The notes under the pieces: model-generated
The model's database searches: none
Told to the model about the DNA's origin: nothing
What the model saw: only the letters and a program-made list of their open reading frames with translations
Made by a program: the position numbers and the translations under genes
From: Saprospiraceae bacterium
Lineage (GTDB): Bacteria; Bacteroidota; Bacteroidia; Chitinophagales; Saprospiraceae
NCBI GenBank assembly: GCA_015490175.1
Contig: WFYJ01000214.1
Coordinates: 1 to 41,525, forward strand
DNA: 41,525 nucleotides
Reading direction: 5' to 3'
Shown: positions 17,529 to 33,000 of the stretch, one piece after another
How the letters are laid out: every line of letters begins with the position of its first letter
How positions within the stretch are numbered: the first letter of the stretch is position 1

Positions 17529-18485
17529 TTACTGCTTCAGGCCGATCTCGCGCAGGCGCTCGTCGAGGTATTCGCCAGCCGTGATGGGCTCGTAAGCCAG
17601 GGGCCGCTCCTCGCTCACGCACTGCGGCAGGCACGTCAGATCCATCTCGCTGCGCGGGTGCAGGAAGAACGGGATCGACAGGCGCGGCAGGTGCCACTCC
17701 TCGCGCGGCGGGTTGACCACGCGATGCGTCGTCGACTTGAGGTAGTTGTTGGTCAGGCGCTGCAGCATGTCGCCTACGTTGATGACGATCTCGTCATTCT
17801 CGGGCATGATGTCCACCCATTCGTCGTCTTTGGTCAGGATCTGCAGACCGCCGGCCGAAGCACCCACCAGCAGCGTGATGAGGTTGATGTCTTCGTGCTG
17901 CTCGGCGCGGATGGCCGACTCGGGCTCTTGCGTGATCGGCGGATAGTGGATGGCGCGCAGGATCGAGTTGCCCCAGGTGATGGGCTCGTCGAACCAGTCT
18001 TCAGGCAGATCGAGGTGCAAGGCGATGGCGCGCAGCAGCGCCGCGCCGGCCCGCTCGAATTCGCGATACAGCTCGATGCCCGTGCTGACGAAGTCGGGCA
18101 CCTCGGCTACGTGTACGTTGTCGGGATACTCCTTGCGCAGCGGATGCCCCTCGGGCAGCTCCTGCCCGATCTGGTAGAACTCCTTGAGGTCGCCCACCTT
18201 GCTGTGCCTGGCGTGCTCCTTGCCGAACGAGGTATAGCCGCGCTGGCCGGCCAGCCCTTCAATCTCGTACTGCTTTTTCACCTCTTCGGGCAGGGCAAAA
18301 AAGGCCCTGGCCCGATCGTAAAAGCGAGCGACCAGCTCTTGCGGAATGCCGTGGCCCACGACCCCCACGAAGCCGATCTCGTGAAAGGCTTTGCCCAGCT
18401 TGTCCACGAATGCCTGGCGTTGCCCGGCCGTGCCGTGCACAAACTCGCGCAGGTCCACGACGGGAATGTGGCGTTTTCTGCTCAT
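17529..18485 (-). CDS. 2-oxoglutarate/Fe(II)-dependent oxygenase, isopenicillin N synthase-like family
   Basis: A 318-aa oxidoreductase of the IPNS/2OG-Fe(II) superfamily. Seen: the N-terminal DIOX_N region (IPVVDLREF, FHEIGFVGVVGHGIP), then the double-stranded beta-helix core with the iron ligands His197 and Asp199 (EQHEDINLITLL) and His254 (STTHRVVNP), and Arg268-x-Ser270 (PRLSIPFF), the usual 2-oxoglutarate carboxylate clamp. The core is complete, so an active enzyme is expected; the substrate cannot be told. Many bacterial members with this architecture are only annotated by family. The ATG at 18485 starts the conserved region; the open frame to 18575 is not supported. No biosynthetic cluster is adjacent. 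Confidence 0.9.
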   Translation of the reverse strand: MSRKRHIPVVDLREFVHGTAGQRQAFVDKLGKAFHEIGFVGVVGHGIPQELVARFYDRARAFFALPEEVKKQYEIEGLAGQRGYTSFGKEHARHSKVGDLKEFYQIGQELPEGHPLRKEYPDNVHVAEVPDFVSTGIELYREFERAGAALLRAIALHLDLPEDWFDEPITWGNSILRAIHYPPITQEPESAIRAEQHEDINLITLLVGASAGGLQILTKDDEWVDIMPENDEIVINVGDMLQRLTNNYLKSTTHRVVNPPREEWHLPRLSIPFFLHPRSEMDLTCLPQCVSEERPLAYEPITAGEYLDERLREIGLKQ

Positions 18486-18661
18486 TGCTTCTGTTTTGGT
18501 TGCTGATTGGTCTGGCGCTGTAAAGTTCCACTTTGCCAAGGGGTTTTGCAACCGGTAGCAGGGAGCCACACCCACCCTCTACGGCAAACCTTTTTCTGGC
18601 AAAAACTTGCGCATGTGAGCGATTATTTTTTTTGCATATCTGTTCACAAAAACATTTTATC

Positions 18662-19701: not shown

Positions 19702-20856
19702 CTACGAAACCAGGTCGGCATCGTGCCGGCAGGGTGCGTGTACATCGGTCGGAGGCAGCGGCTGTGCTGCCGCCACGGCCACCAGTTGTCGTTGCATCTG
19801 TGCCACCGAGAAGCGGGCCGCGAAGTCGCGGGCACGGGCAGCGAGGCTTGCGTACAACGCCTTGTCTTTGCGCAGCAGCTCGATGGCATGCGTCAGGGCG
19901 TCCAGATCGTGCGGATCGATCAGAAAGCCATTTTCTCCCTGATGTACCAGCTCGGCCGGGCCGCCGGCGGGTGGGGCAATGACGGGGATGCCATAGCTCA
20001 TGGCCTCGAGCAGCGTCATGCCAAAGGTCTCCACCCAGCGCTCGGGATGCGAGAGGTTGCACACCACGTCGGCGTGCTGGTAGAAGGGGTGCACGTCGCG
20101 CTGGGCAGGGAAGACCACCAGGTTGTCCGGCATCGGCAGGCCGCGCTGCCCGAACCAATGGCTGATGTCCTCCATTGTGGCATTGAGCACCAACACAAAC
20201 TGGCAGTGGGGCAGCCGGCCCGCCAGCGCCACGAACTCGCCGACCCCTTTGTAATCCTTTAGCGAGCACAGCATCAGCACAGTAAACGGGCGACGCATGT
20301 CGGGGTCGGTTTCTTTTTCATGGAGGGCGGCCTGCATCACGAACTCTTCGGGCAAGGCATTGTACACCACGCTGGAAGGCACTCCGGGCAGGCCTTCTTC
20401 TTTTTGCAAAAAGCGGGAAACGAACACGGCATGGTGTGCCGTATGGCGCGCCACGAAGCGCAACCACCGCTTCAGCACGGGCGGCCGCACCGAGGTCTCG
20501 TGGATGTGGTACACCACGCGATGGCCCATGAGGCGGGCGGCGAGGGCGGCGCCAAAAGGCATGAGCGTGTTGAGCCAGAACACGACCCCCTCGGTGCGGC
20601 GGTAGCGCCACATGGCTGCAAACAGCCACACCTGGGCCCACAGCAGCGCCCACAGGCGCAGCCATTTGTTGTCGTAAAAACGGTATGGTATTTTGCGGAA
20701 GCAGGCGTCACATTCACTCAGGAAGCCGGGACCTGCACTGGCGTACAGGTCGACTGCCCAGCCTTGCCGCCGGAAGCCGGCGATGGCCGTGGCCAGCACG
20801 CGCGGGCTGCCGCTGTAGTCGTTGAGCAAATGGACGGCGACGATTTTCTTTTTCAT
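19702..20856 (-). CDS. Glycosyltransferase family 4 (GT-B)
   Basis: A 384-aa retaining-type sugar transferase, last gene of the exopolysaccharide operon. Seen: an N-terminal Rossmann half starting KKKIVAVHLLNDYSGSPRVL with the Gly/Ser acceptor loop, HIHETS (118-122 region), and a C-terminal nucleotide-sugar half with SLKDYKG (198-204), the EX7E motif Glu276...Glu284 in ETFGMTLLE and the PAGGPAELV donor loop. It acts at the cytoplasmic face of the inner membrane. The start at 20856 is preferred; an ATG four codons upstream (20868) is also possible. The much longer open frame upstream is the antisense or alternate-frame shadow of the preceding glycosyltransferase. Confidence 0.9.
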   Translation of the reverse strand: MKKKIVAVHLLNDYSGSPRVLATAIAGFRRQGWAVDLYASAGPGFLSECDACFRKIPYRFYDNKWLRLWALLWAQVWLFAAMWRYRRTEGVVFWLNTLMPFGAALAARLMGHRVVYHIHETSVRPPVLKRWLRFVARHTAHHAVFVSRFLQKEEGLPGVPSSVVYNALPEEFVMQAALHEKETDPDMRRPFTVLMLCSLKDYKGVGEFVALAGRLPHCQFVLVLNATMEDISHWFGQRGLPMPDNLVVFPAQRDVHPFYQHADVVCNLSHPERWVETFGMTLLEAMSYGIPVIAPPAGGPAELVHQGENGFLIDPHDLDALTHAIELLRKDKALYASLAARARDFAARFSVAQMQRQLVAVAAAQPLPPTDVHAPCRHDADLVS

Positions 20857-20891: not shown

Positions 20892-22229
20892 TCAGACGAA
20901 ATAGCTCTTGGCGGCCCACTTGCGCACGGCCACAGGCAAGCGGCGCGGCGGCTTCGAGACGATGACGCGCTCGTCCATCATGATATCGCGATAGCAGGCC
21001 ACAATGTCCCTGGCCTTGACGTCGTAGGTATAGCATCGCTGGTAGCGCAGGTGGGCGGCCTTGCCCATCTGGCAGCGCAGTTTCGGCTCGTGCAGCAGGC
21101 GTCCCAGCCCTTCGGCAAAAGCTGCGATGCTCTCCTCGTAGGTGGTGTAGGGCACACGGAAGGCACAGGTGTCGTCGGTGAACTCGCCCGGGCCGTAGTT
21201 GCGGAAGCACAACACGGGCAGGCCATACGACATGGCCTCGACCACCACCATGCCGGCACCTTCGTGCGAGGGGAAGAGGAAAGCCGAAGCCGAGTTGTAG
21301 TAATCCTCCAGCTCGCGGCGGTCGAGCCAGGGCACGAAGCGCACGGCCCCCTCGGGCAGGTCGCACTCCTGCACCATCTTTTTCAGGCGCGCCTCCTCGG
21401 GGCCCCGCCCGATGAGCACCAGCTCCAGACTGCTGCGGATGGCCCGGGGCTGCGCGTGGTAGAAGCGCGCAAAGGCCCGGATGGTCACGTCAAAGCCTTT
21501 GAGCGGCACGAAGCGCCCGATGCTCAGCACCCTGAACTTGTCGCGCTCGACCTGCCGGCGATGGGGCGGCTCGGTAGCCGTAGGCGGGATGCGCACTTCC
21601 TTCTCCGGTGGCAGGGGCAGCACCTGTGCCACGCTGCTGTTCATGGCCAGTATCTTGCGCGCCTTGCGGATGGTGATCTTGAGGAACGGATCGAGCTTCC
21701 AGAACATTTGCTTGAGCAGCCACAACCGCCGATCGGCCAGCCAGGCGCGCCACCCGTAGGGGCGCAGCCAGGGCGCAGGAATCTTGTGGTGATGCCCGAT
21801 AGGACCCCACACCAGCGGCTTGCCCAACCGCCACAGGAACGAGGGCGTCCAGTCGTTGTGGAAGTTGAGATGGTGGGCGATGTCGAACGAGAAGCCCTTT
21901 CGCCGGATGAACGACACCACGCCCATGTGCCACAGGTAATGATACAGCATGGCACCGCGGCTGCCCCGCTTCCAGAAGCGCATCCAGGCCGGCAGGTCGT
22001 AGTACGCAAAGTGGAGCGACACGTGGGGCGGCAGCGGGTTTTCCTTGAGAAACTGCCGGATGGCCGGCGCATTGTTCTTGCGCGTGATGGCAATGACGGG
22101 CGTATGCTCGGCCACGTGCCGGATGATGTTCCAACCCGAACCGTCTTCCGAGCCCTTGTAGGGATTCACCGCATAGGCCGTCATCAGCACGGTGGGCCGC
22201 AGGGGCGGTTGCTCGTGTACCTGCTTCAT
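20892..22229 (-). CDS. Glycosyltransferase family 4 (GT-B)
   Basis: A 445-aa GT4 enzyme of the polysaccharide cluster. Seen: MTAYAVNPYKGSEDGSGWN near the N terminus (16-34), a pattern common in GT4 enzymes of Bacteroidota surface-glycan loci; GRFVPLKGF (238-246) with the donor-phosphate Arg and Lys; and EX7E Glu323...Glu331 in HEGAGMVVVEAMS. A second ATG at 22262 would add 11 residues; 22229 is preferred because the added residues are not typical. The sugar transferred cannot be told. One near copy of the iterated 13-mer lies inside (21107-21119). Confidence 0.9.
   Translation of the reverse strand: MKQVHEQPPLRPTVLMTAYAVNPYKGSEDGSGWNIIRHVAEHTPVIAITRKNNAPAIRQFLKENPLPPHVSLHFAYYDLPAWMRFWKRGSRGAMLYHYLWHMGVVSFIRRKGFSFDIAHHLNFHNDWTPSFLWRLGKPLVWGPIGHHHKIPAPWLRPYGWRAWLADRRLWLLKQMFWKLDPFLKITIRKARKILAMNSSVAQVLPLPPEKEVRIPPTATEPPHRRQVERDKFRVLSIGRFVPLKGFDVTIRAFARFYHAQPRAIRSSLELVLIGRGPEEARLKKMVQECDLPEGAVRFVPWLDRRELEDYYNSASAFLFPSHEGAGMVVVEAMSYGLPVLCFRNYGPGEFTDDTCAFRVPYTTYEESIAAFAEGLGRLLHEPKLRCQMGKAAHLRYQRCYTYDVKARDIVACYRDIMMDERVIVSKPPRRLPVAVRKWAAKSYFV
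21107..21119 (+). repeat. Near copy of the iterated 13-mer (one mismatch)
   Basis: GCCCTTCGGCAAA, antisense inside the glycosyltransferase gene. Confidence 0.45.
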
Positions 22230-22273
22230 GGTCGTTCTGGTTAAAATGGCAGAATTGGTCAACTCAAGTACTT

Positions 22274-22299: not shown

Positions 22300-23052
22300 T
22301 CAGCCCGAGGCGGCCGCCGGCACCTCCTCGACCGGAGGCGGCATGGTGTCCTGGTCGTCCGGAGCGATGTGCTTGAGCACGCGAGCCGGCACGCCGCCGA
22401 TGACGGAATCGGAGGGCATGGATTTGGTCACTACGGCGCCGGCCGCGATGACGCAGTTGTCGCCGATGGTGACGCCGTCGAGGATGGTCACCTTCGAGCC
22501 GATCCAGCAGTTGCGACCGATGCGGATGCCTTTGCGCGTGACGCCCTGCAACCGGATCGGGCGGTCGCCGCAGCCGAAGTTGTGGTTTTCCGGATGGCAG
22601 CTCAGGTACTGCCCGATGATGCAGTCGTCGCCGATTTCGAGGCCGCCGCCCCCGCCCAGGTAGGCAAACTCGCCGATGCCGACGTTGTTGCCGATGCGGA
22701 TGTAGCTGCCCACGTGGTCGAACGAGGTGGCCGCCACGATGCGGCTGAAGGCCCCGATGCGCACGTTGTCGCCAAACATCACCGGCCGGCGCGACAGGGC
22801 GCTGACGAAGACGTGGTCTTCGAGCTGCACCCACCGGCCGAAGTGGATGTTGGCCAGGTTGAAAAAACGCACACCACGGCCAAGGAAGAGCATGCGGGGC
22901 ACGCGCCCGTAGAGCAGCAGGCGCCAGGCGCGCAGCCAGGCCAGGCCCTTGGTCCAGGCCAGCGACAGTATCTGGCCGGTAGTGATGGAATCGTCCCAGC
23001 GGAAATGGGGATTCTTCCGCCGAACGAGGCGTTGCAATATCTCCTTTAGCAT
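22300..23052 (-). CDS. Left-handed beta-helix (hexapeptide-repeat) acyltransferase
   Basis: A 250-aa trimeric-type O- or N-acyltransferase, probably acetylating a sugar of the exopolysaccharide. Seen: an N-terminal helical region (1-55), then hexapeptide repeats from about 70 to 220 (FGDNVRIG, RIGNNVGIG, LEIGDDCIIGQ, IRIGRNCWIGSKVTI), the catalytic-type His in CHPENHNFG (His157) and the closing loop VTIGDNCVIAAGAVVTKSMP with GGVPARVLK. The tail after 228 is a Pro/Glu-rich extension. The start at 23052 fits the conserved N terminus; the longer open frame upstream is the shadow of the kinase fusion. Acetyl-CoA is the usual donor. Confidence 0.9.
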   Translation of the reverse strand: MLKEILQRLVRRKNPHFRWDDSITTGQILSLAWTKGLAWLRAWRLLLYGRVPRMLFLGRGVRFFNLANIHFGRWVQLEDHVFVSALSRRPVMFGDNVRIGAFSRIVAATSFDHVGSYIRIGNNVGIGEFAYLGGGGGLEIGDDCIIGQYLSCHPENHNFGCGDRPIRLQGVTRKGIRIGRNCWIGSKVTILDGVTIGDNCVIAAGAVVTKSMPSDSVIGGVPARVLKHIAPDDQDTMPPPVEEVPAAASG

Positions 23053-23087: not shown

Positions 23088-24386
23088 TCAGGCAATCCGG
23101 ATGTATGCACGTACCAGCGTGTCGAGGGTACGTTCCATTTCCACGTTCTCCAGGGGCAGATAGACGGCATGGTCCGTCCGTCCGCTCAGGTCTTCGAAAA
23201 GTCGCTTGTAGCGTCGCGTCAGTTCGCCGATGGTGGCGGCGTCGAGTTCTCGCTTGCGCGCCCGGATGAGGCGCGCATCGGCATAGAGAAACACGTTCAG
23301 GTCGGGCTCGAAGAGGAATCGGTACAGCCAGCGCGGCAGCCACTCGTCGAGTTCGAGGTTGGTGCGCCGCGCATCCACGATGAAGTCGAAATAGTAGCGG
23401 TCGTACAGGACGATATAGCCGCGCAGCTTGTAGCGCAGCAACACGTAGAACTGTCCGATCAGATAGTCGGCGAAGTAATAGGCAAAGCGCAGCAGCGACA
23501 GCAGTTTGCTTTTGTTTTGTCCCTGACGCGGCAGGCGCTGCACACTCAACTGCTCTGCTTTTTGCTTGCCGTAAATCCAGGCGCTGAGGATCGGCAAGAG
23601 GGAAGGGCGGTGCCGCAACACCACGACCTTCTGCCGGTAGCGCTTGCGCAAAATGTCGGCAAAGGCTTCGAGGATGGTGCTCTTGCCGGCGCCATCCACG
23701 CCGCTGAAAGTGATGATGCGTCCGCGAGGGTGCATCAGGTCGCGCAAAGTATCCCAAGCGTACCACAGCATATGCCGCGCACGCGCAAAAAGGCGGTTTT
23801 CAGGCAAGCGGCGCACATAGGCCAGCAAGCGCCGATGCACCGACGCATCGTATTCCGCCATCTCGACGAAATCAGTAAAGGTGGTGCCGTATTTGGCATT
23901 CAAATATTCGAGCAAAAACTGCTGGCGCTCCGCGGGCAGATCCTTGTACCAGAGCAGGTATTTGGCAGGAAGGCCGGAGCCGTTCAAAACATTGAACAGC
24001 AGCACGTGCTCCAGCATGGTCAGGTCGCTGTACGTGCTGATGCCGTTGACGATCTGCTTGTTGGCCATCACTTCCCGATTGGGCAGATAGATGAGGTTTT
24101 TCCGAATGAGCCGATAGAGCAGATCGACCTGCAGGAAGCTCCCGTCGGTGAAGAAGACAAACGCCTGCGTCATGTGGTGGCGGCGGCGCAAGCGGTAGGT
24201 AAACACCTCGCCCTGCTGCCGCAACCACTCCTCGAAGTCGTAGTCGTCGCCGTCGGGCAGCAGCACATCCAGATCGGACGACTCGGCCAGCTCGTGCAAA
24301 TCATGGCGCAGGTACTTGAGCAGGTAGTACTCGCGCCCCTCGAGCCATCCGAGCAGTTTTTCCGTAAAGCGGTTGCGTGCACTCAT
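23088..24386 (-). CDS. Nucleotidyltransferase-like/thymidylate kinase-like fusion protein
   Basis: A 432-aa two-domain protein. N-terminal part (about 1-200) has a nucleotidyltransferase-like pattern: ESSDLDVLLP with Asp38 and Asp40 and a third acidic residue at Asp88 (FLQVDLLYRL). C-terminal part (about 222-432) resembles dTMP kinase: P-loop GVDGAGKST (229-237), DRYYFDF (329-335) and a basic lid RARKRELDAATI. dTMP kinase itself is about 210 aa and single-domain, so this is not the housekeeping enzyme. Sitting between an APH-fold kinase and an acyltransferase in a glycan operon, it may phosphorylate or nucleotidylate a glycan, lipid carrier or precursor; that role is inference. All key P-loop residues are present. 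Confidence 0.75.
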   Translation of the reverse strand: MSARNRFTEKLLGWLEGREYYLLKYLRHDLHELAESSDLDVLLPDGDDYDFEEWLRQQGEVFTYRLRRRHHMTQAFVFFTDGSFLQVDLLYRLIRKNLIYLPNREVMANKQIVNGISTYSDLTMLEHVLLFNVLNGSGLPAKYLLWYKDLPAERQQFLLEYLNAKYGTTFTDFVEMAEYDASVHRRLLAYVRRLPENRLFARARHMLWYAWDTLRDLMHPRGRIITFSGVDGAGKSTILEAFADILRKRYRQKVVVLRHRPSLLPILSAWIYGKQKAEQLSVQRLPRQGQNKSKLLSLLRFAYYFADYLIGQFYVLLRYKLRGYIVLYDRYYFDFIVDARRTNLELDEWLPRWLYRFLFEPDLNVFLYADARLIRARKRELDAATIGELTRRYKRLFEDLSGRTDHAVYLPLENVEMERTLDTLVRAYIRIA

Positions 24387-24471
24387 CGTCTGTTCTTTTC
24401 GTTCAGCAAGTCGGTTGGCGGTTTCGGCAGAGGAATTGCGATTTGTGTTCCTTTTTCAAATCAATTGAAAA

Positions 24472-25926
24472 TCAAAACACTACAAGTCGCTTGTTTTTCC
24501 CTTTGATCCCATTTTGCACCTCAGTCCCATCCTGGGAAAGCACCTCGTCCAGTGCGGCACTCCAGGCGTTGATCAGCCAGTAGGCCTGCACGTGCAGATT
24601 GATCTGGGTGAGGTAGCGCGGCAGGTAGTAGCTCATCACCCAGGCGAGATAAAAGCAGCGATGCCACTCGAAGTCCACACCGAACTCGCGGCAGATCGCT
24701 TCGAGTACGGGCTGGTGCTTCAGGCGCTCGACGGCACGTGCGATCCCTTCGTAGTCGCTATGGCCGATCAGTACTTCCGACTGGAAGGTGTAGTGAAACA
24801 GGTCGAACAGCATCGGCATGGCGGGGGCCGACAGCTCCCAGTCGTAGGCATACAGGCGGCCGTCAGCGCCGACGAAAGTGTTCCAGGGCGTAAAGTCGCC
24901 ATGGGCGCGGGCCACGGGCACGGTGTAGCTCCGGCTTTTACGCAATCGTTCGGTGAGCACTTCGAGCCGATCGATGAGGCGTTCCATGGCGTAGGGCACG
25001 AAGCGCCGCGTAGTGGCTGCCGCCTCGCGCGCTTCGCTCTGCCACAGCCGCATCTTTTCCCATACGGGCAGCTCATTTGCCGCAAGGCGGTCGGCCGTGC
25101 GGTTGTACAGCTCGTACAGAGCATCGAGGTGTACCCGCTGAATGCGGGTGGCCGGCCGGAAGCGGCGCGGCTGCACATTGGTCACCGCAATGCCGGCAAA
25201 CAGCTCGCTCGCTTTCGGGAAGCGCAGGCGGTGCCACGCGAAGGTGTCGAGCTCGGCCAGCGTGTTGAGCTCGTTGCGCACCAGACGATGAGCACTTTCC
25301 GTAAACGGAAACTTGACGAAATGCGTCACCTGACCCCGCGCATCGGCCAGCGCGATGACGGCCTTGCGGTTGCGCCCCATGGTGCCGGTAAAGATGGCAT
25401 AGTGGTCGTGTGGTATGGGGGCCAGCAGCGGGGCGAGCGGATGTTCGTGCTTGTACCACAGCTCCAGCCGATGGCGGCGTGCCAGCAGGCGCGGCAAACG
25501 CAGCACAAAACCCAAGCGCAGACCGGCGCGCAGCAGCCGCCCTTTGATGTCGTTGGCATTGTAGAGGGCCAGGAATGTGGGTTCGGGCAGTGCAGCGTCG
25601 AACAGAAAGCGAATCGAACCGTCGGGATTGGGCAGCCAGGTGTACACCGCGTGGCGTGCATCGGCATTCATGACGCCCCGGTCCAGCATCCAGTCCACGG
25701 CCGGCAGGGCGAAGAGGTCGTCCAGGGGCTCGTCGGAAAGATTGACGATGCCGCAGTGGCTGCCTGCCTCTTCGATTTTTGCCTTGAGCGCGGCACGACT
25801 GCGCACCAGCTCGATGCGGGTATCAGGCCGAACGGCTGGCGAGGGTGCGTACACCAGTACGCGCGTGGACGCCCACCCGAAAAGCCTGGTGCAGACGGGG
25901 ATGTCGTCGAAATGCAGTGGTTTCAT
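24472..25926 (-). CDS. Aminoglycoside-phosphotransferase/choline-kinase-fold kinase
   Basis: A 484-aa protein of the APH/protein-kinase-like fold. Seen: a long N-terminal region (about 1-175) of unknown kind; a likely nucleotide-binding N lobe (about 170-230); and the catalytic loop HGDFTPWN (His342, Asp344, Asn349) with the metal-binding Asp362 in YAYDWE. The family phosphorylates small hydroxylated substrates such as choline, sugars or aminoglycosides; in a polysaccharide operon a sugar or lipid-linked glycan is the reasonable guess. Its first 104 bases overlap the end of the polymerase gene in another frame. An AT-rich 7-bp hairpin (24453-24471) abuts the stop. It precedes the kinase fusion by 85 bases. 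Confidence 0.82.
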   Translation of the reverse strand: MKPLHFDDIPVCTRLFGWASTRVLVYAPSPAVRPDTRIELVRSRAALKAKIEEAGSHCGIVNLSDEPLDDLFALPAVDWMLDRGVMNADARHAVYTWLPNPDGSIRFLFDAALPEPTFLALYNANDIKGRLLRAGLRLGFVLRLPRLLARRHRLELWYKHEHPLAPLLAPIPHDHYAIFTGTMGRNRKAVIALADARGQVTHFVKFPFTESAHRLVRNELNTLAELDTFAWHRLRFPKASELFAGIAVTNVQPRRFRPATRIQRVHLDALYELYNRTADRLAANELPVWEKMRLWQSEAREAAATTRRFVPYAMERLIDRLEVLTERLRKSRSYTVPVARAHGDFTPWNTFVGADGRLYAYDWELSAPAMPMLFDLFHYTFQSEVLIGHSDYEGIARAVERLKHQPVLEAICREFGVDFEWHRCFYLAWVMSYYLPRYLTQINLHVQAYWLINAWSAALDEVLSQDGTEVQNGIKGKNKRLVVF

Positions 25927-27181
25927 ATCGCTGTTTTTTGGTCGATGCGCGAATGACGAAGAGGAAAATGAGAAAGTGATAAAACATGATTCCGTAGTTG
26001 ATCTCGCCGAAGATGCCGAACTCGGTAAAGGAGTTGATCATGAGCGGGATCAACATCATCCAGGCCATGAGTTTGAGCTCCCGATCTCTGGCGCGCGCAA
26101 TGGCGCGGATAGTGGCAGCCATCTGGAGAAAGGCAATCCATGCACCCACCATACCCAGATTCATCAGGACCTGGATAAAGGTGTTGTGGGTCATCTTTCC
26201 CGGGTAGCTGTGGATAGAGTGAAAACGCTCGGTATTGGCAATACGCATGAAGCCGTAGCCCAAGAGCGGCTTGCGCGGAAAGCCGTCGGTCAGCAGGTCT
26301 TTCCAGAAGGGCAAACGGCCCGTCATGCTCATCACTTCCTCCACATCGCCTTGCTTGACGATGATGGTCTGCACCAGTATGGGCATGACCACAATGGCGC
26401 CCACCACGCTGAGTACTTGCAGCTTCAGGTTGCCCGACTTGAGGATGTAGATGCCCGTGACCAGCATGAACGACCCCAGCGACGAGCGCGACTGGGTGAG
26501 CAGCAGCACGACCACGCACACTACAATGTTGAAAATGTGGAATCTCTTGGGCTTGCCCCGAAGTATCTCGATGTAACTGGCCGAAGTGCCCAGCACCACC
26601 AGCATGCCCAGCTCGTTGGGATTGATGATATAGCCGCCCAGGCGCGAGACTTCACCGCCGTGGGTGTCGCGGAAGAAGTTGTCCGGATCGACAAACATGC
26701 CAATGATGAAAGCCATACTGACTATGCATATGGCACGCGAAAGAATCATGGCATAACGGGCATGATTGCCACTCAGCCCATTGTAGAGCACCAGCAGCTT
26801 GTAGTGAAAAAACACGAAAACGATACCCTCTATGGCCATGGCAATCTGCAGGGCCGTATGCGATACCGACGAAGTCCACAGCAGGGAAGCCAGCCCCAGC
26901 AACAGATAGGCGGCATAGAGGGCCGGAGCAAAAAAATTGTCGTATTCAAGGCGCACGTAGCGCCGGTCGTACCGCTTCCGGAGCCAATAAAAGAGCAAGA
27001 TGCTGGCGCCCGTAAGCATGGTGCGCAAAAACACCTTGGTCACCTGCGTCAGCGCAGCCGAGTTGGTGAATACCGTCAGATAGCTCGTGATGCGCAACGC
27101 CATCATGACGATCAACAAGGTGCGGAAGCCCTTGCTGCGCCAGTAGATTACCGGAGTGTTCGTTGTAGCATCAACTTGCAT
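25823..27181 (-). CDS. O-antigen ligase/Wzy-type polysaccharide polymerase
   Basis: A 452-aa polytopic membrane protein with about ten to twelve hydrophobic segments. Seen: the large periplasmic loop before the C-terminal helices, with the RfaL/Wzy_C-type signature MTHNTFIQVLMNLGMVGAW and the preceding LLGYGFMRI, plus SRSSLGSFMLVTGIYIL. Members polymerise lipid-linked repeat units (Wzy) or ligate them to an acceptor (WaaL); with a flippase and Wzc/Wza-like partners here, Wzy is more likely. It starts 11 bases inside the end of the upstream glycosyltransferase. Its last 34 or so residues, which are basic and unlike a membrane protein, are encoded in the 104-bp overlap with the next gene. Confidence 0.88.
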   Translation of the reverse strand: MQVDATTNTPVIYWRSKGFRTLLIVMMALRITSYLTVFTNSAALTQVTKVFLRTMLTGASILLFYWLRKRYDRRYVRLEYDNFFAPALYAAYLLLGLASLLWTSSVSHTALQIAMAIEGIVFVFFHYKLLVLYNGLSGNHARYAMILSRAICIVSMAFIIGMFVDPDNFFRDTHGGEVSRLGGYIINPNELGMLVVLGTSASYIEILRGKPKRFHIFNIVVCVVVLLLTQSRSSLGSFMLVTGIYILKSGNLKLQVLSVVGAIVVMPILVQTIIVKQGDVEEVMSMTGRLPFWKDLLTDGFPRKPLLGYGFMRIANTERFHSIHSYPGKMTHNTFIQVLMNLGMVGAWIAFLQMAATIRAIARARDRELKLMAWMMLIPLMINSFTEFGIFGEINYGIMFYHFLIFLFVIRASTKKQRYETTAFRRHPRLHQAFRVGVHARTGVRTLASRSA

Positions 27182-28343
27182 GGCTCATCAGGTTGGGCAC
27201 TTCTTCGGGCAGCCGCGGTTGTCGGCCGGCATATACTTCGCTCATCAGCCGGGCGATGCGTGGCCAGTTGAAGACCTCTTCGGCCATGCGGCGCGCCCGG
27301 GCGCCGTAATGGGGCAGTGTGCCCTCGGCAAAGGCGCGGTATGCCGCACACATGGCCTCCGCAATGGCCTCGCTGTGGCCCGGTGGCCTTACGGGAAAGC
27401 CCGCCTTGTACTGGCGGATATAGCTGTTGACATTGGCAGGCTCAGTGGTGAGGCAGGGCAGGCCCAGGCCGGCCGCCTCGAGCACCGCGATGGGGAAGCC
27501 CTCCGAGCGCGAGGGCAGCACGAAAACATGCGACCGGGCCAGAAGCCGGAATTTCTCCTCGCCATAGCGTGCTCCGTGGAACACCACCTTGTGGGCCATG
27601 CCCACCCGATGCGCATACGCTTCGAGCCACGCCCGATCAGGGCCGTCGCCGACAAGCTCGATGCGCCCGGGCAAACCACTGTCGAGGTATTTGCGAAAAG
27701 CGTCGAACAGCACGTCCAGTTGCTTGTAATAATTGTCTATCCGTCCGCAAAAGCTGAACACCAGCTCGCGGCTCCCGGAAAAGTCGGGCCGCACCCCCTC
27801 GGGCAGTGTGGAAAGGTCAATACCATTGGGCACGAGGCACTTGTTCGGCACCGAAACCCAGGTGTCGATGCAGCGATATTCGTTGGCACCCAGCAGTTGC
27901 ACCATGCGTGCCTTGCGTATGATGCGCACCTCAAAGAGCCGGAAGTACAACCTTTTGGCCAGCCCATTCTTGCGCATGGCTTCATGGGTCAGCGCCCCGT
28001 GCGGGGTATAGACATATGGAATGCCTCTGCGCTGCAGGCGGCGCGCGATCCGGTAAAATTCGGGGATAAAAGCGCCGTGAAGGTGCACCACCTCGGTGCC
28101 CTCCAGTGCGTCGATGGCCCGAATCAGTTCCGGGTCGAGTTTCCATTTTTGCGGAAGCTGGCGAAAAAGGCGGGTGTGGTAAGCACGCGGTGGAAAATCA
28201 CGACGCGTGTTGGAGGCAATGCCCCACAGAGTCACCTCGTGCCCCAGTTCGACCAGTGCCGCCGACAGGTAGTGCGCTACCTGATTGATGCCGTTCATAC
28301 GATCGGGATTGGCTTTTCCAAGTACGACTTGTACAATCTTCAT
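27171..28343 (-). CDS. Glycosyltransferase family 4 (GT-B)
   Basis: A 390-aa GT4 enzyme. Seen: MKIVQVVLGKANPDRMNGINQ with the N-terminal Gly loop, VVHLHGAFIPEF and YTPHGALTHEA (acceptor side), the nucleotide-binding FCGRIDNYYKQLD (198-210), and EX7E Glu281...Glu289 in SEGFPIAVLEAAGLG. This pattern is shared with enzymes adding mannose, rhamnose, fucose or galactose in exopolysaccharide assembly; the specificity is unknown. The ATG at 28343 begins the conserved Rossmann strand, 20 bases after the flippase stop. The gene end overlaps the polymerase start by 11 bases, supporting translational coupling. Confidence 0.92.
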   Translation of the reverse strand: MKIVQVVLGKANPDRMNGINQVAHYLSAALVELGHEVTLWGIASNTRRDFPPRAYHTRLFRQLPQKWKLDPELIRAIDALEGTEVVHLHGAFIPEFYRIARRLQRRGIPYVYTPHGALTHEAMRKNGLAKRLYFRLFEVRIIRKARMVQLLGANEYRCIDTWVSVPNKCLVPNGIDLSTLPEGVRPDFSGSRELVFSFCGRIDNYYKQLDVLFDAFRKYLDSGLPGRIELVGDGPDRAWLEAYAHRVGMAHKVVFHGARYGEEKFRLLARSHVFVLPSRSEGFPIAVLEAAGLGLPCLTTEPANVNSYIRQYKAGFPVRPPGHSEAIAEAMCAAYRAFAEGTLPHYGARARRMAEEVFNWPRIARLMSEVYAGRQPRLPEEVPNLMSHAS

Positions 28344-28363
28344 GCGTTCGAATTTTCTGAGGT

Positions 28364-29683
28364 TCAGGAATGATCTGCAGCCGAAGCCGCCGGCCGCCGG
28401 CCACGGCGGGCTCCGGCCCGGTACAGCGCCCACAACCCGACGGCCAGCAAAATGAGCTGGCTGATAATGAGGCCGGCCAGCAACCCCTCCATCTTCCAGC
28501 CCTGCACCATGGGCGTTACAGCCACTATGCTGAAAGCCGCACTTGCCGCATAGCCCCAGAAGACAGACTGTGTGCGCTCAAGGGTGCGAACGGCAAACTG
28601 CGTCATCGTGGAAGCATAGACGAATACGTAGAGCACGCAGTACACGCGCACCACCCAGGCCCATTGGACCGCCTCGGCGCCGTAGAGCAGGGCCGTAATC
28701 GGCTCGGCACCGATGGCCAGCACAGCCAGCAACGCGCCCGTAATCAAGCCATAGCGCAGACTCTGCACCTGCATGTATTTTGCGAAAGCGGGATAACCGA
28801 AATCAAAAAGTTGTCGGGCAGCCTGCACCGGCACGATGCTCTCCAGCGAGAGGAACAGCACGTGCGTCAATCCGAGGATGTTCTGGGCGATGCGCACGGC
28901 CCCGGCTGCTGCAGGGCCCAGCACGCTTGCCCCTGCGATGATGAAAGCGTTGCCCGAAAACCACTGCAGCAAGGCTTTGCCCACCAGCCATTTGGAAAAG
29001 TGATAGTGTCGCGCCCAGACGATGGATGCCAGGCGGCGGCGCCAGCGCGGCGGCCATGCCCGGGGCGCCTCCAGCAGGCTTTTGAGTTGCGGCCCCATGA
29101 CGCCCAGGCCGGCGGCGAGGGCCGCGCTCCACCACCAGAGCACGGCTGTGAGGTGTAGTGCATCGCGTGCGTACATCGCGCCCAGGCCGGCCAGCAACAG
29201 CAGCAGCGTCAGCGCATCGGCCAGCAGGGGGCGCAGGATCTGCCTTTCGGCAAATGAGGCCTTGCGCGCGAACTCCTGCACCAGATACAGCGGGCTGAAC
29301 ACCGCCATTATCTGTCCGATGTATTGCCAGCTTGCACCCAGCAGGCCGACCACCTGCCCGGCCCACATGAGTGCGCCACCGAACACCAGCACTGCCGCCA
29401 TCGGCAGGTGCCCCCACGCCAGTACGCCCAGCCAGGAACGGCGGCGCGCAGCGCGCAACTTGCCGTAGAAGGTAAACATGGGCTGCGTGATGAAGGCCTG
29501 GTGCAGGCTCAGCACGAAGAGCACGGCCATCCATGCCAGTGCAAAGTGGCCGAAATCCTCGATGCCAAGGCCGCGTGCCAACAGCACGACCAACACGAAG
29601 TTGCCGCCGCTGAGTACCATCTGGTCGGCGATGATGCCCACATGCCCGTTCAGGCGCTGCAATATGTCGGACAGGTACTTCAT
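28364..29683 (-). CDS. Polysaccharide flippase (Wzx/MATE-like, MVF superfamily)
   Basis: A 439-aa inner-membrane protein with about twelve predicted helices. Seen: the N-terminal pattern GIIADQMVLSGGNFVLVVLLARGLGIEDFGHFALAW, typical of the polysaccharide-biosynthesis flippase family; a central loop rich in Arg; and helices ending in LLAGLIISQLILLAVGLWAL. The family moves undecaprenyl-linked repeat units across the membrane before polymerisation. The ATG at 29683 is chosen over 29737 since the extra 18 residues are not conserved in type. Repeat copy B lies directly upstream, between this gene and the Wzc-like gene. An iterated 13-mer falls in the codons for S-F-A-E-R-Q. Confidence 0.88.
   Translation of the reverse strand: MKYLSDILQRLNGHVGIIADQMVLSGGNFVLVVLLARGLGIEDFGHFALAWMAVLFVLSLHQAFITQPMFTFYGKLRAARRRSWLGVLAWGHLPMAAVLVFGGALMWAGQVVGLLGASWQYIGQIMAVFSPLYLVQEFARKASFAERQILRPLLADALTLLLLLAGLGAMYARDALHLTAVLWWWSAALAAGLGVMGPQLKSLLEAPRAWPPRWRRRLASIVWARHYHFSKWLVGKALLQWFSGNAFIIAGASVLGPAAAGAVRIAQNILGLTHVLFLSLESIVPVQAARQLFDFGYPAFAKYMQVQSLRYGLITGALLAVLAIGAEPITALLYGAEAVQWAWVVRVYCVLYVFVYASTMTQFAVRTLERTQSVFWGYAASAAFSIVAVTPMVQGWKMEGLLAGLIISQLILLAVGLWALYRAGARRGRRPAASAADHS
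29242..29254 (+). repeat. Iterated 13-mer, coding copy antisense to the gene
   Basis: Exact plus-strand copy in the flippase gene; the minus-strand reading uses TTT GCC GAA AGG, a third codon phase and a rare AGG codon. Confidence 0.7.
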
Positions 29684-29740
29684 ACGGTGGTGTCCTTGAA
29701 TAGATGATCTCGCATCCCGAAAATGAGCCGGGGGCAAAAG

Positions 29741-29919: not shown

Positions 29920-32211
29920 TCAGGCGCGATTGAGCAATTTGCGTTTCCAGCCGGTTGCCTCGTGGCGATATTTCTTCAGCTCGCGCGGCTTCATACGCAC
30001 GTCGTTGAGCAGCACCATGCTGTTGAACAGCTCCCATTCGTGGATGAGCTTCTCCAGCGCTTTCACTTTGCGCACCTTCGAATAGCGGGCACGCACCACG
30101 AACAGGTTGAGGTGGCTCTGCTGCATCACGGCCACCGCATCAATGGCCAGACTCAGAGGCGGCGTATCCACGATGATGACGTCGTATATGCTGCCCATGC
30201 TCTGGAGCATGAGCTGAAACTCTTCGGAGAAGATCATGCCCGGGTTGCAAGCTTCGACATCGCCTGCGGGGATGAGTTCGAGGTTTTCGGTTTGCGTCAG
30301 CAGGGGGGCGTCGTACACGTCGATGTCGCCGGCCAGAATGCCCGCCACGCCGCCGAAGTTGACGGTGCCCACCAGCTCGTGCAGGCTCGGCTTCCAGATG
30401 TCGAGGTCAATGAGCAGCACGCGCTTGCCGGTCTGTGCGAGGGCGCGACCGATCTGGGCGGCGGCAAACGACTTGCCTTCGAGCGGCGCATACGAAGCCA
30501 CCGTGATGAACATGCCGTTCTGGTAGTGGGCGAAGAGCTGCGTGAGCTTGGCCACGATTCTGGCGTGCAGCTCGAAGGTATCCCACTGGCCTTCCGGCAC
30601 ATGCGCCAACTCGCCCAGCACCGGAATGCTCATGATGTCTTCCAGTTTCGAGACGCTGGTCACCTTGGCGCGCCAGAAATCCCAGGCATAGGCCACGGCC
30701 ATGCCCAGCAGCAGGGCAAAAAAGAGCGTCACGCCGAGGATGAGCGGCCTGTTGGGAGAAGAGGGCGTGGTGGGCAGCAGGGCGCGATCGATGATCTGGT
30801 GCGGATAGAGATTGGCCGAGCGCGCAATGGCCAGCTCGGTGCGGCGCTTGCTCAGGTAGTTGTACATGGCCTCGCGCAACTGTACCTCGCGCTCCAGCTC
30901 CACCAGCCGACGCTGCTTCTCGGGATAGCTCTTCAGGGTGGCGTCCACCTCGGCCATTTCCTGGTCGATTTTGCGGAGGCGCAGATCCAGGTTGCGAATG
31001 GTGTTGCGCACCGACTCGTTGAGCATGGTGCGCAGCTCGTTGATCTTGTACTGCACGTTCATCACCTCCTCGCTGTGGGCCGGATACTTGATGAGCAGGT
31101 CGTGTTTCTGGAGTTCCAGATCCTGGATCTTGAGGTAGGTGGTGCGGAAAACGTCCTCCTTGAGTGCCTGGAAGTTGGGCGTGAAGTCGCGCAGGTCGTT
31201 GCCCGAGGCGAGGTAGTCGAACAGACGTTGCAGCTCGGCGCGTTGCAGCTCGAGGTCGACTTTCTGGTTGTTGAGTTGCATCGTCTCCTTCAGGAGGGCG
31301 TCGCTCTCCTGCGTGGGGTTGACCAGGCTGTTGGCCGTCTTGAAGGCGGCCAGCTCGGCCTCGGCCTTCCGCAGGGCCCGCTCGGCCGAATCGAGCTTGA
31401 CGTCGAGGTAGGCCAGCATCTCGTCGGCCTTCTTCTCGAGTTTTTCGCGGTAGTGCTCCATGTAGGCCTCCATGAGCGCGTTGACGAACTTCATGGCGCG
31501 CTCGGGCACTTCGTTCAGGTAGTAGATCTTGAGAATGGGCACGTCCTTGTCCACCGGCTTGATGAACAGGTTGGCATCGCTCACGCCATTGATGAGGCCG
31601 TCGATCGAATTGATGCGGAAGGCAAAACAGTCGCCCGGCTTGAGGCTGTGGGGTTTTTCCCTGAGGAAAGGCTCATTGAGCCGCAAGGTGAAGCGCAGGC
31701 CCTCGGCCACCACCTCCTCGCCGGCGCGGAACACGAGCTGGTGCGTCTCGGCCTCTTTGCTCTTGCCCATCGAAAAGCGGCCATTGCCCTGATAGACGAG
31801 ATAAAACAGCTTGTCGTAGCCGCGCGGCTCGAGCACCTCGTACTGCAACAGGAAAGGGCGCTCGTCAATGAGGGGCAGCGTCTTCATATCGCCCACGCGA
31901 TACAGGTCGAGCTCGAAGTCGAGGCGCTCGAACGTCTTGCGCAGGATCTCGCGCGACTTGAACACCTCAATCTCGGCAATGAATGCATCGACCTTGCCCG
32001 CACCGCCGCCACCCGGCGCAGGAAAGAGGTCCTCGGCCAGGTGGTTTTCCTTGAGATTGATGCGAATGGCACCTGCCGCACGGTACTTGGGCGTCATGTA
32101 ATCCACCATGCGGGAGACGCTCAGGTAGGTGCACGCCAGGATGATGGCAATAAACGGTGCGCCCCTGAGCAGGGGCATCACCACATTCAATATGTCTTTT
32201 TTGAATCCCAT
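29920..32211 (-). CDS. Wzc-like polysaccharide chain-length/co-polymerase protein with cytoplasmic BY-kinase-type ATPase
   Basis: A 763-aa inner-membrane protein. Seen: a first transmembrane helix (about 17-35), a large periplasmic region with GNVR-type features and long coiled coils (about 250-470), a second transmembrane helix (about 495-515), then a P-loop ATPase: Walker A EGKS with Lys580, Walker A-prime VLLIDLDIWKPSLHELVG (about 600-618) and Walker B-type VIIVDTPP with Asp682. Wzc partners control chain length and export through Wza. Compared with typical BY-kinases the residue before EGK is Leu rather than Gly, and the last 30 residues carry only one Tyr, so the phosphotyrosine tail is missing. 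The export lipoprotein gene lies 51 bases upstream. Confidence 0.9.
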   Translation of the reverse strand: MGFKKDILNVVMPLLRGAPFIAIILACTYLSVSRMVDYMTPKYRAAGAIRINLKENHLAEDLFPAPGGGGAGKVDAFIAEIEVFKSREILRKTFERLDFELDLYRVGDMKTLPLIDERPFLLQYEVLEPRGYDKLFYLVYQGNGRFSMGKSKEAETHQLVFRAGEEVVAEGLRFTLRLNEPFLREKPHSLKPGDCFAFRINSIDGLINGVSDANLFIKPVDKDVPILKIYYLNEVPERAMKFVNALMEAYMEHYREKLEKKADEMLAYLDVKLDSAERALRKAEAELAAFKTANSLVNPTQESDALLKETMQLNNQKVDLELQRAELQRLFDYLASGNDLRDFTPNFQALKEDVFRTTYLKIQDLELQKHDLLIKYPAHSEEVMNVQYKINELRTMLNESVRNTIRNLDLRLRKIDQEMAEVDATLKSYPEKQRRLVELEREVQLREAMYNYLSKRRTELAIARSANLYPHQIIDRALLPTTPSSPNRPLILGVTLFFALLLGMAVAYAWDFWRAKVTSVSKLEDIMSIPVLGELAHVPEGQWDTFELHARIVAKLTQLFAHYQNGMFITVASYAPLEGKSFAAAQIGRALAQTGKRVLLIDLDIWKPSLHELVGTVNFGGVAGILAGDIDVYDAPLLTQTENLELIPAGDVEACNPGMIFSEEFQLMLQSMGSIYDVIIVDTPPLSLAIDAVAVMQQSHLNLFVVRARYSKVRKVKALEKLIHEWELFNSMVLLNDVRMKPRELKKYRHEATGWKRKLLNRA

Positions 32212-32262: not shown

Positions 32263-33000
32263 TCATCGGGCCAGCACCGAGATCACCACGGCCAGGCTGG
32301 TCAGGATGCTGATGATAGGAGTCGCCTTGTCGAGGCTCTCGCGGAATTGCTTGTTGGGATGGGGGGGCACGTACACCACGTCTCCCGGCAGCAGGGTGAT
32401 GTTGTGGGTGGCCAGGCCCTGCACGGCCGTCAAATCAACCCGCCAGGTCACCGTCTTGCCCCGGATGTTGCGCACGACCTCTACCTCCGTGGGGTCGCCG
32501 AAGTCGTTCAGCCCTCCGGCCTGGCCCAGCATCTCGATGAGGGTGGGCGTCTCGTTGTTGAGCTGGAAGCGCCCCGGATTTTTCACTTCGCCCAGTACGG
32601 TGACGTAGTGGTTGAGCACTTTGACGTTGATGACGGGATTGTTGATGTAGTCCGAATAGCGCTGTTCGAGGTAGAAGCCCGCCTCTTTGGCCGTCAGGCC
32701 GGCCAGCCGCACGCGCCCCACCTTGGGCAGGTTGACTTCGCCGTCGGCATTGACCGTCAGCCAGTTGCCCGTTGACTCATTGGCATTGAAGGTGTTGTTG
32801 ACCGAGCCGATACTCAGCTCGTCGTGCCCCCAGATGCTGATGGTGATCTTGTCGCCGGCCCGGATGACCGGCTCCTTCGGCTTGAAGTACTGGTAAAGCT
32901 GCGAGGGTGGATATTCCTGTTGCGACTCGAACAGCCGTGGCATGGTACTGCACGAACTCAGCAGAATGATCATGGTCAGCGCAGGGGCGATCGTTTTCAT
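32263..33000 (-). CDS. Wza-like polysaccharide export lipoprotein
   Basis: A 245-aa outer-membrane-directed lipoprotein and first gene of the exopolysaccharide operon. Seen: lipobox LSSC (Cys17); a Poly_export domain (about 45-120) with IRAGDKITISIWGHDELS and VNADGEVNLPKVGRVRLAGLTAKEA; a SLBB-type domain (about 128-215) with VTVLGEVKNPGRFQL, LGQAGGLNDFGDP and LLPGDVVYVPP; and a C-terminal hydrophobic helix (about 225-243). It is shorter than Wza of Escherichia coli (about 360 aa), as is usual for Bacteroidota versions. The C-terminal helix could be the membrane segment that forms the pore. The gene is divergent from the NtrC-type regulator, 300 bases away. Confidence 0.92.
   Translation of the reverse strand: MKTIAPALTMIILLSSCSTMPRLFESQQEYPPSQLYQYFKPKEPVIRAGDKITISIWGHDELSIGSVNNTFNANESTGNWLTVNADGEVNLPKVGRVRLAGLTAKEAGFYLEQRYSDYINNPVINVKVLNHYVTVLGEVKNPGRFQLNNETPTLIEMLGQAGGLNDFGDPTEVEVVRNIRGKTVTWRVDLTAVQGLATHNITLLPGDVVYVPPHPNKQFRESLDKATPIISILTSLAVVISVLAR

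Follow-up and report, generated by a model that had tools for sequence, protein, structure and literature searches.

A candidate three-domain phosphotransfer module in a Wzx/Wzy-type exopolysaccharide locus of a Saprospiraceae bacterium

The question raised by the exopolysaccharide locus described here is whether two adjacent genes with phosphotransfer motifs form one functional unit, and at which step of polymer assembly that unit could act. The window analyzed is the whole of a 41,525-nucleotide contig (G000:C214) from a 4.14 Mb genome of a Saprospiraceae bacterium. The two genes, separated by 85 bp, encode a kinase of the APH fold and a protein in which a nucleotidyltransferase (NT) domain is joined to a thymidylate-kinase-like (TMPK) domain. 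A first-pass annotation made from the sequence had placed two genes with kinase motifs between a Wzy-like polymerase gene and an acyltransferase gene, had described the motifs as intact (HGDFTPWN and DWE in one protein, GVDGAGKST and DRY in the other), and had described the second protein as a DxD...D domain joined to a dTMP-kinase-like domain. All of this was confirmed, the placement by coordinates together with Pfam and family scans that identified a Wzy-type gene (Wzy_C) upstream of the pair and a hexapeptide acetyltransferase gene downstream. Tentatively, we propose that the pair could well work as a single module, a trifunctional APH-NT-TMPK enzyme divided between two genes, which would act on a polyprenyl-linked repeat unit, or on the donor of a GT4 glycosyltransferase, before export.

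Linkage of the kinase and NT-TMPK genes across genomes

Linkage was surveyed in 90 loci with a match of at least 95 bits to the NT-TMPK profile, comprising 20 from the window and genomes of its family, five from plasmids, 43 from further Bacteroidota/Balneolota and 22 from other phyla (64 Bacteroidota/Balneolota and 26 other loci when sorted by phylum). The loci were drawn from the family genomes, plasmids and a species-genome scan (best 80 of 114), and the survey is no census; it includes the near-identical Leisingera plasmids L032 and L054, leaves out the duplicates L056 and L061, and contains two loci, L102 and L108, that match in the TMPK part only. The kinase was encoded in the same open reading frame (ORF) in 41 loci and at most 200 bp off on the same strand in 21. 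Of the rest, 11 had it at a greater distance in the stretch and 17 had none there; the kinase matches were weak in L102, L108 and L121 (19, 42 and 28 bits). Eight of the 17 kinase-less loci belong to family genomes, and each of these encodes the kinase at another site, three of them on the same contig and five on a different one. A second-round kinase profile had picked up NT-TMPK parts from fused proteins and was excluded from the counts.

Among 150 genomes of the family, both genes were present in 22, the kinase only in one, NT-TMPK only in none and neither in 127, a co-occurrence that also holds with the genes on different contigs. Of 30 genomes with a match, eight were scored as having no NT-TMPK, their only matches being weak ones of the dTMP-kinase-like or NT-only type, and two of the 22 (G099 and G108) have NT-TMPK in pieces. 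The corresponding numbers among 296 genomes of the phylum were 7, 0, 2 and 287, with at most five candidates scored per genome and with two of the nine NT-TMPK matches being single-domain (G161 and G328). Fisher P values of 1.7e-25 and 9.8e-13 were obtained in the 90-locus survey, with related genomes treated as independent. The APH and NT-TMPK parts travel together although the module is patchy. An unlinked kinase gene followed by an NT-like fragment was also observed in one family genome (G115:C54:11142-13026), as though a three-domain gene had been copied and its TMPK part lost.

Both proteins match common families at weak scores, as would be expected if the genes were chance neighbours, a variant housekeeping dTMP kinase beside a resistance-type phosphotransferase in an exopolysaccharide locus. 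This explanation is scarcely credible given the single ORF in 41 of 90 loci, the presence of both genes in 22 of the 23 family genomes with at least one of them, and the six housekeeping-type dTMP kinase loci from the same scan (L127, L130-L134), none of which had such a kinase in the stretch. As far as sequence allows, the survey refutes it.

The single ORFs, in which all three domains reside on one polypeptide, were found in 40 of the 64 Bacteroidota/Balneolota loci and mostly encode proteins of 750-924 residues. Their domains follow the order APH-NT-TMPK in Bacteroidota; one Binataceae genome (L118) has NT-TMPK-APH. Further fusions, each seen in one genome, join the parts to enzymes of polymer assembly: NT-TMPK to an initiating sugar transferase in Microthrix (L115; Bac_transf, 8.4e-58), NT-TMPK to a GT4 in Luteolibacter (L109) and APH to a GT4 in a gammaproteobacterium (L103), the GT4 part being borne out by Pfam in both, a flippase-like part to TMPK in a member of the Pseudomonadales (L108; MatE below cut-off, 0.0019), and NT-TMPK to a flippase-like part in an acidobacterium (L116). 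The last assignment is based on similarity to the flippase-like protein of the window, the L116 part having no Pfam match. In a phylogenetic tree the split form of the window falls within a group of 21 Saprospiraceae rows, all split, that is nested among the fused forms. The tree requires six changes of the fused or separate label, with long branches leaving some placements unsure; fewer changes are probable because two rows labeled separate (L064 and L088) are cut by a contig end. The "kinase pair" of the first-pass annotation is correct in that two genes are adjacent; a more fitting description is a single module of three domains, APH, NT and TMPK, usually accompanied by a GT4.

Both genes are under purifying selection, since differences to a relative of the same genus concentrate at codon position 3 (113, 54 and 241 differences at positions 1, 2 and 3 for NT-TMPK; 144, 113 and 273 for the kinase).

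Domain folds and active-site residues

The TMPK-like domain carries GVDGAGKST at residue 229 and DRY at residue 329. Residues G229, D231, G232, G234, K235, T237 and D329-R330, together with D38, D40 and D88 of the NT domain, are invariant in all 25 aligned sequences, the window's included, as is R377-K378-x-E380 in the TMPK-like domain. Pfam Thymidylate_kin (PF02223) matched residues 228-381 at 26.9 bits, slightly below the gathering score of 27, and profile A1 matched PDB entry 3hjn at 1.4e-8. The protein scored 25 bits against TIGR00041, far below the dTMP kinase cut-off of 83.25 bits; 17 of 25 relatives matched this family at 1e-5 or better (best 1.4e-9), with L113 at 40.4 bits and L033 at 28.5 bits. 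The length of 432 residues compares with open frames of 205-214 residues in seven, and of 258-391 in four, of 11 dTMP kinases of the relatives that exceed the cut-off, the matches of which cover about 187-195 of the 196 profile positions. No dTMP kinase above the TIGR00041 cut-off was found in the genome of the window itself, the best candidates outside the window being of 28 bits (G000:C72:27318-27851) and 26.5 bits (G000:C113:6339-6701).

Residues of the helix preceding the DR motif bind dTMP in dTMP kinases. The A-A/D-R pattern of this helix is replaced in the module by an aromatic stretch, RFxYYxxDYLxGQ. The 20 residues preceding the DR motif, compared ungapped by distance from the motif, contained a mean of 7.6 aromatic residues with -5.95 kcal/mol on the Wimley-White interface scale in 91 NT-TMPK family sequences, versus 1.5 aromatics and +3.6 kcal/mol in 16 dTMP kinases. 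The 91 sequences are those above 95 bits with the duplicates L056 and L061 included and L120 dropped for lack of a DR match, as were L119 and L126 from below 95 bits. The 16 dTMP kinases, which include the six controls of the family comparison, derive from 31 loci tried, the other 15 (12 below the family cut-off, one above it and two weak matches of the window's own genome) having given no pattern match. The aromatic segment fits a putative membrane-interface or lipid-linked acceptor. Identity of the NT-TMPK protein as a housekeeping dTMP kinase was ruled out by the scores, the segment before the DR motif, the fusion and the loci. Separately, four TMPK-like proteins of 230-265 residues that have no NT domain (L122, L123, L125 and L128; 62-70 bits to the family profile) were intermediate in this segment, outside both means (-0.9 to +1.0 kcal/mol, 2-4 aromatics). 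Their stretches gave no first-round kinase match, and that of L122 lies near an initiating sugar transferase.

The NT motifs are SDLDV at residue 37 and QVDLL at residue 86, and the triad D38, D40 and D88 comprises the sole residues invariant in all 48 NT sequences. Structure prediction followed by comparison with solved structures, proposed as a check in the first-pass annotation, predicted with confidence that the N-terminal half of the protein has a pol beta-type nucleotidyltransferase fold; modeled alone from the 48 sequences with AlphaFold, the domain had a mean predicted local distance difference test (pLDDT) score of 95.7. The closest solved structures are nucleotidyltransferases, namely H. 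pylori 4ok0 (Z 9.3, 153 residues aligned, root-mean-square deviation 4.3), MenT1 (9.0), JHP933 (9.0), LnuA (8.2) and TM1012 (8.1), with seven rows at Z of at least 8. Polymerases and additional members of the superfamily make up the remaining listed rows, and from their titles and our knowledge of the superfamily we take all 50 rows to be NTase-superfamily proteins. Of the Pfam families, NTP_transf_5 (PF14907) was the only one matched by more than one of the 48 members. NT-only paralogues were also observed in Saprospiraceae (L053:8321-9025, L023:1492-2145 and L024:1450-2124); judged by eye over the first 45 residues, those of L053 and L023 lack the second aspartate of DxD, and a short ORF close to those of L023 and L024 resembles ribosomal protein L21 by eye.

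The kinase carries HGDFTPWN at residue 342, DWE at residue 362 and FVKF at residue 203, and its match to Pfam APH (PF01636) of 26.5 bits exceeds the gathering score of 23.2; 13 of 17 kinase relatives matched at E of 0.01 or better. Residues H342, D344, N349, D362, E364 and K205 are invariant in an alignment of 31 sequences, nearly all from Bacteroidota, and also in a 17-sequence alignment including five plasmid sequences (four proteobacterial), except that K205 is nearly so. Profile A4, built from the module kinases, matched no PDB chain at E of 1 or better, and the window sequence alone matched LicA at 0.25. The AlphaFold model aligned with choline kinases, aminoglycoside kinases, LicA and glucosamine kinase at tied Z scores of 14.1-15.5, with maltokinase also among the relatives; 302 residues aligned with glucosamine kinase 6hwl_B (ends 1-468 and 7-441). 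The helix of residues 127-144 is basic and acid-poor (mean net charge +3.8 over the 31 sequences), a hint that the kinase may bind the membrane. The identity of a resistance-type aminoglycoside kinase was rejected, the fold being the only feature that speaks for it.

The first Foldseek row for the kinase was the choline kinase LicA (2.9e-6), tied with glucosamine kinase (3.0e-6), which brings to mind a decoration of the LicD type. Here the APH domain, like LicA, would form the phosphorylated alcohol (of choline, ethanolamine, glycerol or a similar compound), the NT domain would transfer this group to a sugar from the CDP-alcohol, and the CMP released would be recycled by the TMPK-like domain. 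LicD belongs to the nucleotidyltransferase superfamily, and two relatives of the kinase (L103 and L118) match Choline_kinase below its cut-off. This alternative is nonetheless improbable, since choline, aminoglycoside and sugar kinases tie structurally, none of the 48 NT domains matched a LicD family and no cytidylyltransferase was recognized among the window genes scanned.

A cassette supplying a sugar donor is possible though doubtful. An APH-type sugar or alcohol kinase would phosphorylate its substrate, the NT domain would activate the product with an NTP, the TMPK-like domain would phosphorylate the nucleotide or recycle the NMP, and the GT4 would use the donor, a self-contained supply of one unusual residue formally like the Campylobacter methyl-phosphoramidate pathway. 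The three domains usually co-occur, in many cases with a GT4, and several kinds of fusion join them; glucosamine kinase, maltokinase and LicA are all structural relatives of the kinase. A glutamine kinase is reported to start capsule phosphoramidate synthesis (PMC6429109). Against a donor cassette stand the segment preceding the DR motif, which is unlike that of dTMP kinases, and the fusions to flippase-like proteins and an initiating transferase, which suggest a lipid-linked over a soluble substrate. Known sugar-1-phosphate nucleotidyltransferases also differ in fold from the pol beta-type NT domain.

Conservation of the three catalytic sites between phyla, together with the fusions to biosynthetic enzymes, renders highly improbable a module with a regulatory or scaffold role, sensing nucleotides or modifying other proteins of the locus and building no part of the polymer, even though proteins of the NTase and APH folds can modify proteins and NT-only paralogues, two with an altered DxD, exist.

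The exopolysaccharide locus and neighbouring genes

The locus lies on the minus strand in the order Wza-like, Wzc-like, flippase-like, GT4, Wzy-type, APH kinase, NT-TMPK, acetyltransferase, GT4 and GT4 (Table 1), and Wzy, Wzc, Wza and glycosyltransferases, as expected of a Wzx/Wzy-dependent exopolysaccharide locus, were all found in the window. Pfam scans of the flippase-like protein in the Wzx position and of two relatives matched no flippase family; the relative in L101 matches Polysacc_synt_3.

Table 1. Positions of the module, its domains and the neighbouring genes in the window.
Feature	Position	Strand	Basis
APH-fold kinase, 484 aa	24472..25926	(-)	HGDFTPWN, DWE, FVKF; Pfam APH 6.6e-6; AlphaFold mean pLDDT 90.8
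Kinase N-terminal part, residues 1-160	25447..25926	(-)	NPDGxxRW...FLxLYN...K stretch and basic, acid-poor helix, from alignments
NT-TMPK fusion protein, 432 aa	23088..24386	(-)	Pfam, alignments
Nucleotidyltransferase-fold domain (predicted), residues 1-213	23748..24386	(-)	Triad D38, D40, D88; AlphaFold mean pLDDT 95.7
Thymidylate-kinase-like P-loop kinase domain, residues 219-432	23091..23732	(-)	Pfam 4.4e-6; profile A1 to PDB 3hjn
Hexapeptide-repeat O-acetyltransferase, WbbJ-like	22300..23052	(-)	Family matches; start 23052
GT4 glycosyltransferase, usual module neighbour	20892..22262	(-)	Pfam Glycos_transf_1 9.1e-29
Second GT4 glycosyltransferase	19702..20856	(-)	Pfam
Wzy-type polymerase / O-antigen ligase family	25823..27181	(-)	Pfam Wzy_C 6.7e-13
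GT4 glycosyltransferase upstream of Wzy	27171..28433	(-)	Pfam; syntenic
Flippase-like membrane protein (Wzx position)	28364..29737	(-)	Relative L101 Polysacc_synt_3 1.1e-6; own protein without Pfam flippase match
Wzc-type chain-length regulator / tyrosine autokinase	29920..32211	(-)	Family matches
Wza-type outer-membrane polysaccharide export protein	32263..33000	(-)	Pfam Poly_export 1.1e-19, SLBB

A gene-neighbourhood survey, as advised in the first-pass annotation, revealed that adjacency of the module to polymerase, flippase-like and glycosyltransferase genes is conserved across genomes. A GT4 related to the usual neighbour was found beside the module in 75 of 90 loci, defined by at least 90 bits to the window protein or its Agrobacterium relative and by location in the same ORF or within 1.5 kb on the same strand (20/20 loci of the family, 2/5 plasmid, 40/43 further Bacteroidota/Balneolota and 13/22 other loci). 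The best NCBIfam name for this GT4 is EpsH. In 56 of the 64 Bacteroidota/Balneolota loci the module has a relative of the acetyltransferase at a distance of up to about 400 bp. A second GT4 subgroup, with the start HNxYQxxGGED, was seen by eye to recur in module loci outside Bacteroidota (L103:17120, L106:6758, L113:14410 and L120:8038). Elsewhere in the window, a gene of the 2OG-Fe(II) oxygenase family lies to the left of the locus (17529-18575), and positions 8437-12117 encode a reprolysin-like metallopeptidase with cadherin-like and type IX secretion sorting domains.

Matches of the NT-TMPK protein to defence-system models in PADLOC were weak (PDC-M51B, best at 1.6e-6; VakA, 5.6e-6) and the kinase gave none, and a defence system was rejected. 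The literature search, with subscription papers mostly outside its reach, returned no description of the module or of such a locus. In the text of a report on the Myxococcus exopolysaccharide locus (PMC7484181) the words "phosphotransferase" and "nucleotidyltransferase" are absent and four occurrences of "kinase" concern other proteins. An aminoglycoside phosphotransferase gene adjoins cps1 of Akkermansia (PMC13343947). The plasmid records of the survey label members of the module "hypothetical protein" or "phosphotransferase".

Proposed function and comparison with known systems

The role we favour for the trifunctional module is in glycan modification before export, and we infer its activity, membrane proximity, substrate, order of steps and product as follows. 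With the GT4 as partner, the module would act on the cytoplasmic side of the inner membrane, ahead of Wzx flipping and Wzy polymerization, on the polyprenyl-linked repeat unit of the Wzx/Wzy exopolysaccharide or on the donor of the GT4. A sugar or small alcohol would be phosphorylated on a hydroxyl by the APH domain, a membrane-held acceptor would then receive a second phosphoryl group from the TMPK-like domain, and the NT domain with its two-metal triad would join a nucleotidyl or other group through a phosphodiester, such that the polymer would bear a phosphate- or phosphodiester-linked substituent. A lipid-linked or membrane-interface substrate is suggested by the fusions to flippase-like proteins and an initiating transferase and by the aromatic segment. 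The phospho- or nucleotidyl-modification put forward in the first-pass annotation holds in so far as the motifs are intact, the NT fold is predicted and the neighbourhood of polymerase, flippase-like and glycosyltransferase genes is conserved. Of the outcomes named there as contrary, namely the lack of a conserved neighbourhood, or structures with no nucleotidyltransferase fold and a dead P-loop, neither was seen, the P-loop motif being intact.

Several observations weigh against this proposal. Seventeen of 90 loci had no kinase in the stretch, three of which (L064, L088 and L115) start at a contig end, and two of nine phylum genomes with an NT-TMPK match had no kinase at the threshold used. 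Profile A4 favours module kinases because it was built from them, and the fused Hymenobacter protein L076 had no Pfam APH match at E 0.01, its kinase assignment being that of profile A2 (315 bits). The single-genome fusions are mostly from metagenome assemblies. The GT4 neighbour was lacking in three of five plasmid loci and nine of 22 loci from other phyla, and its presence is partly expected because exopolysaccharide loci are rich in GT4 genes. For the NT domain, the structural comparison spans mostly residues 1-127, a Foldseek search with the model gave no match at E of 0.001 or better, and NTP_transf_5 was weakly matched by seven of 48 members at E of 1 or better (best 0.0017), the window protein not being among them. 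A dimer or protein interface is another possible role of the aromatic segment, and the hydrophobic moment of the basic kinase helix is an unremarkable 0.25.

The broader claim, that the module represents a new class of trifunctional enzyme building a phosphodiester- or pyrophosphate-linked group on polyprenyl-linked glycans, with a TMPK fold turned into a membrane-interface kinase, present in many phyla and repeatedly fused to the preceding or following enzymes of the pathway, is speculative and on balance rather unlikely. Neither the domain superfamilies nor this kind of locus is new; the novelty would lie in the chemical step. Exopolysaccharide loci are usually read as flippase, polymerase, glycosyltransferase and sugar-nucleotide genes, an annotation that misses this possible step. 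If phosphate or a phosphodiester is added, the charge, metal binding and phage recognition of the polymer could change.

Compared with known systems, the module shares with thymidylate kinase (TIGR00041/PF02223) the P-loop GxDGxGKST, DR[YF], the domain length and the profile match to 3hjn, and differs in its score of 25 versus 83.25 bits, the aromatic stretch before the DR motif and the attached NT domain. The kinase shares the fold, HGDxxxxN, DxE and the invariant or nearly invariant lysine and glutamate with LicA, glucosamine kinase, maltokinase and aminoglycoside phosphotransferases, and is set apart by its own N-terminal part, its exopolysaccharide loci and the frequent fusion to NT-TMPK. 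Polysaccharide kinases of the WaaP/WbdD type phosphorylate glycans in surface polysaccharide assembly and, unlike the module, have no NT or TMPK domain. The later steps of the Campylobacter phosphoramidate pathway require a nucleotidyltransferase and a P-loop kinase; that pathway differs from the module in its folds, separate genes and export pathway. O-methyl phosphoramidate is a phosphorus substituent of the capsule made kinase-first (PMC6429109). The NT domain shares the predicted fold and the DxD...D triad with NTP_transf_5 nucleotidyltransferases, at weak matches (7/48). We take PsmN of the pseudomycoidin pathway to be a member of that family, and PsmK to be HPr-kinase-like. Gene knock-outs in the pseudomycoidin producer assign phosphorylation of the C-terminal serine to PsmK and show that PsmN, an annotated nucleotidyltransferase, is needed for hexoses on that residue, with a role as glycosyltransferase or after nucleotidylation; PsmN works after the kinase, on a phosphorylated peptide (PMC9266682). 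PsmK and PsmN are the closest functional precedent, a kinase with a nucleotidyltransferase-type protein that works on the phosphorylated product.

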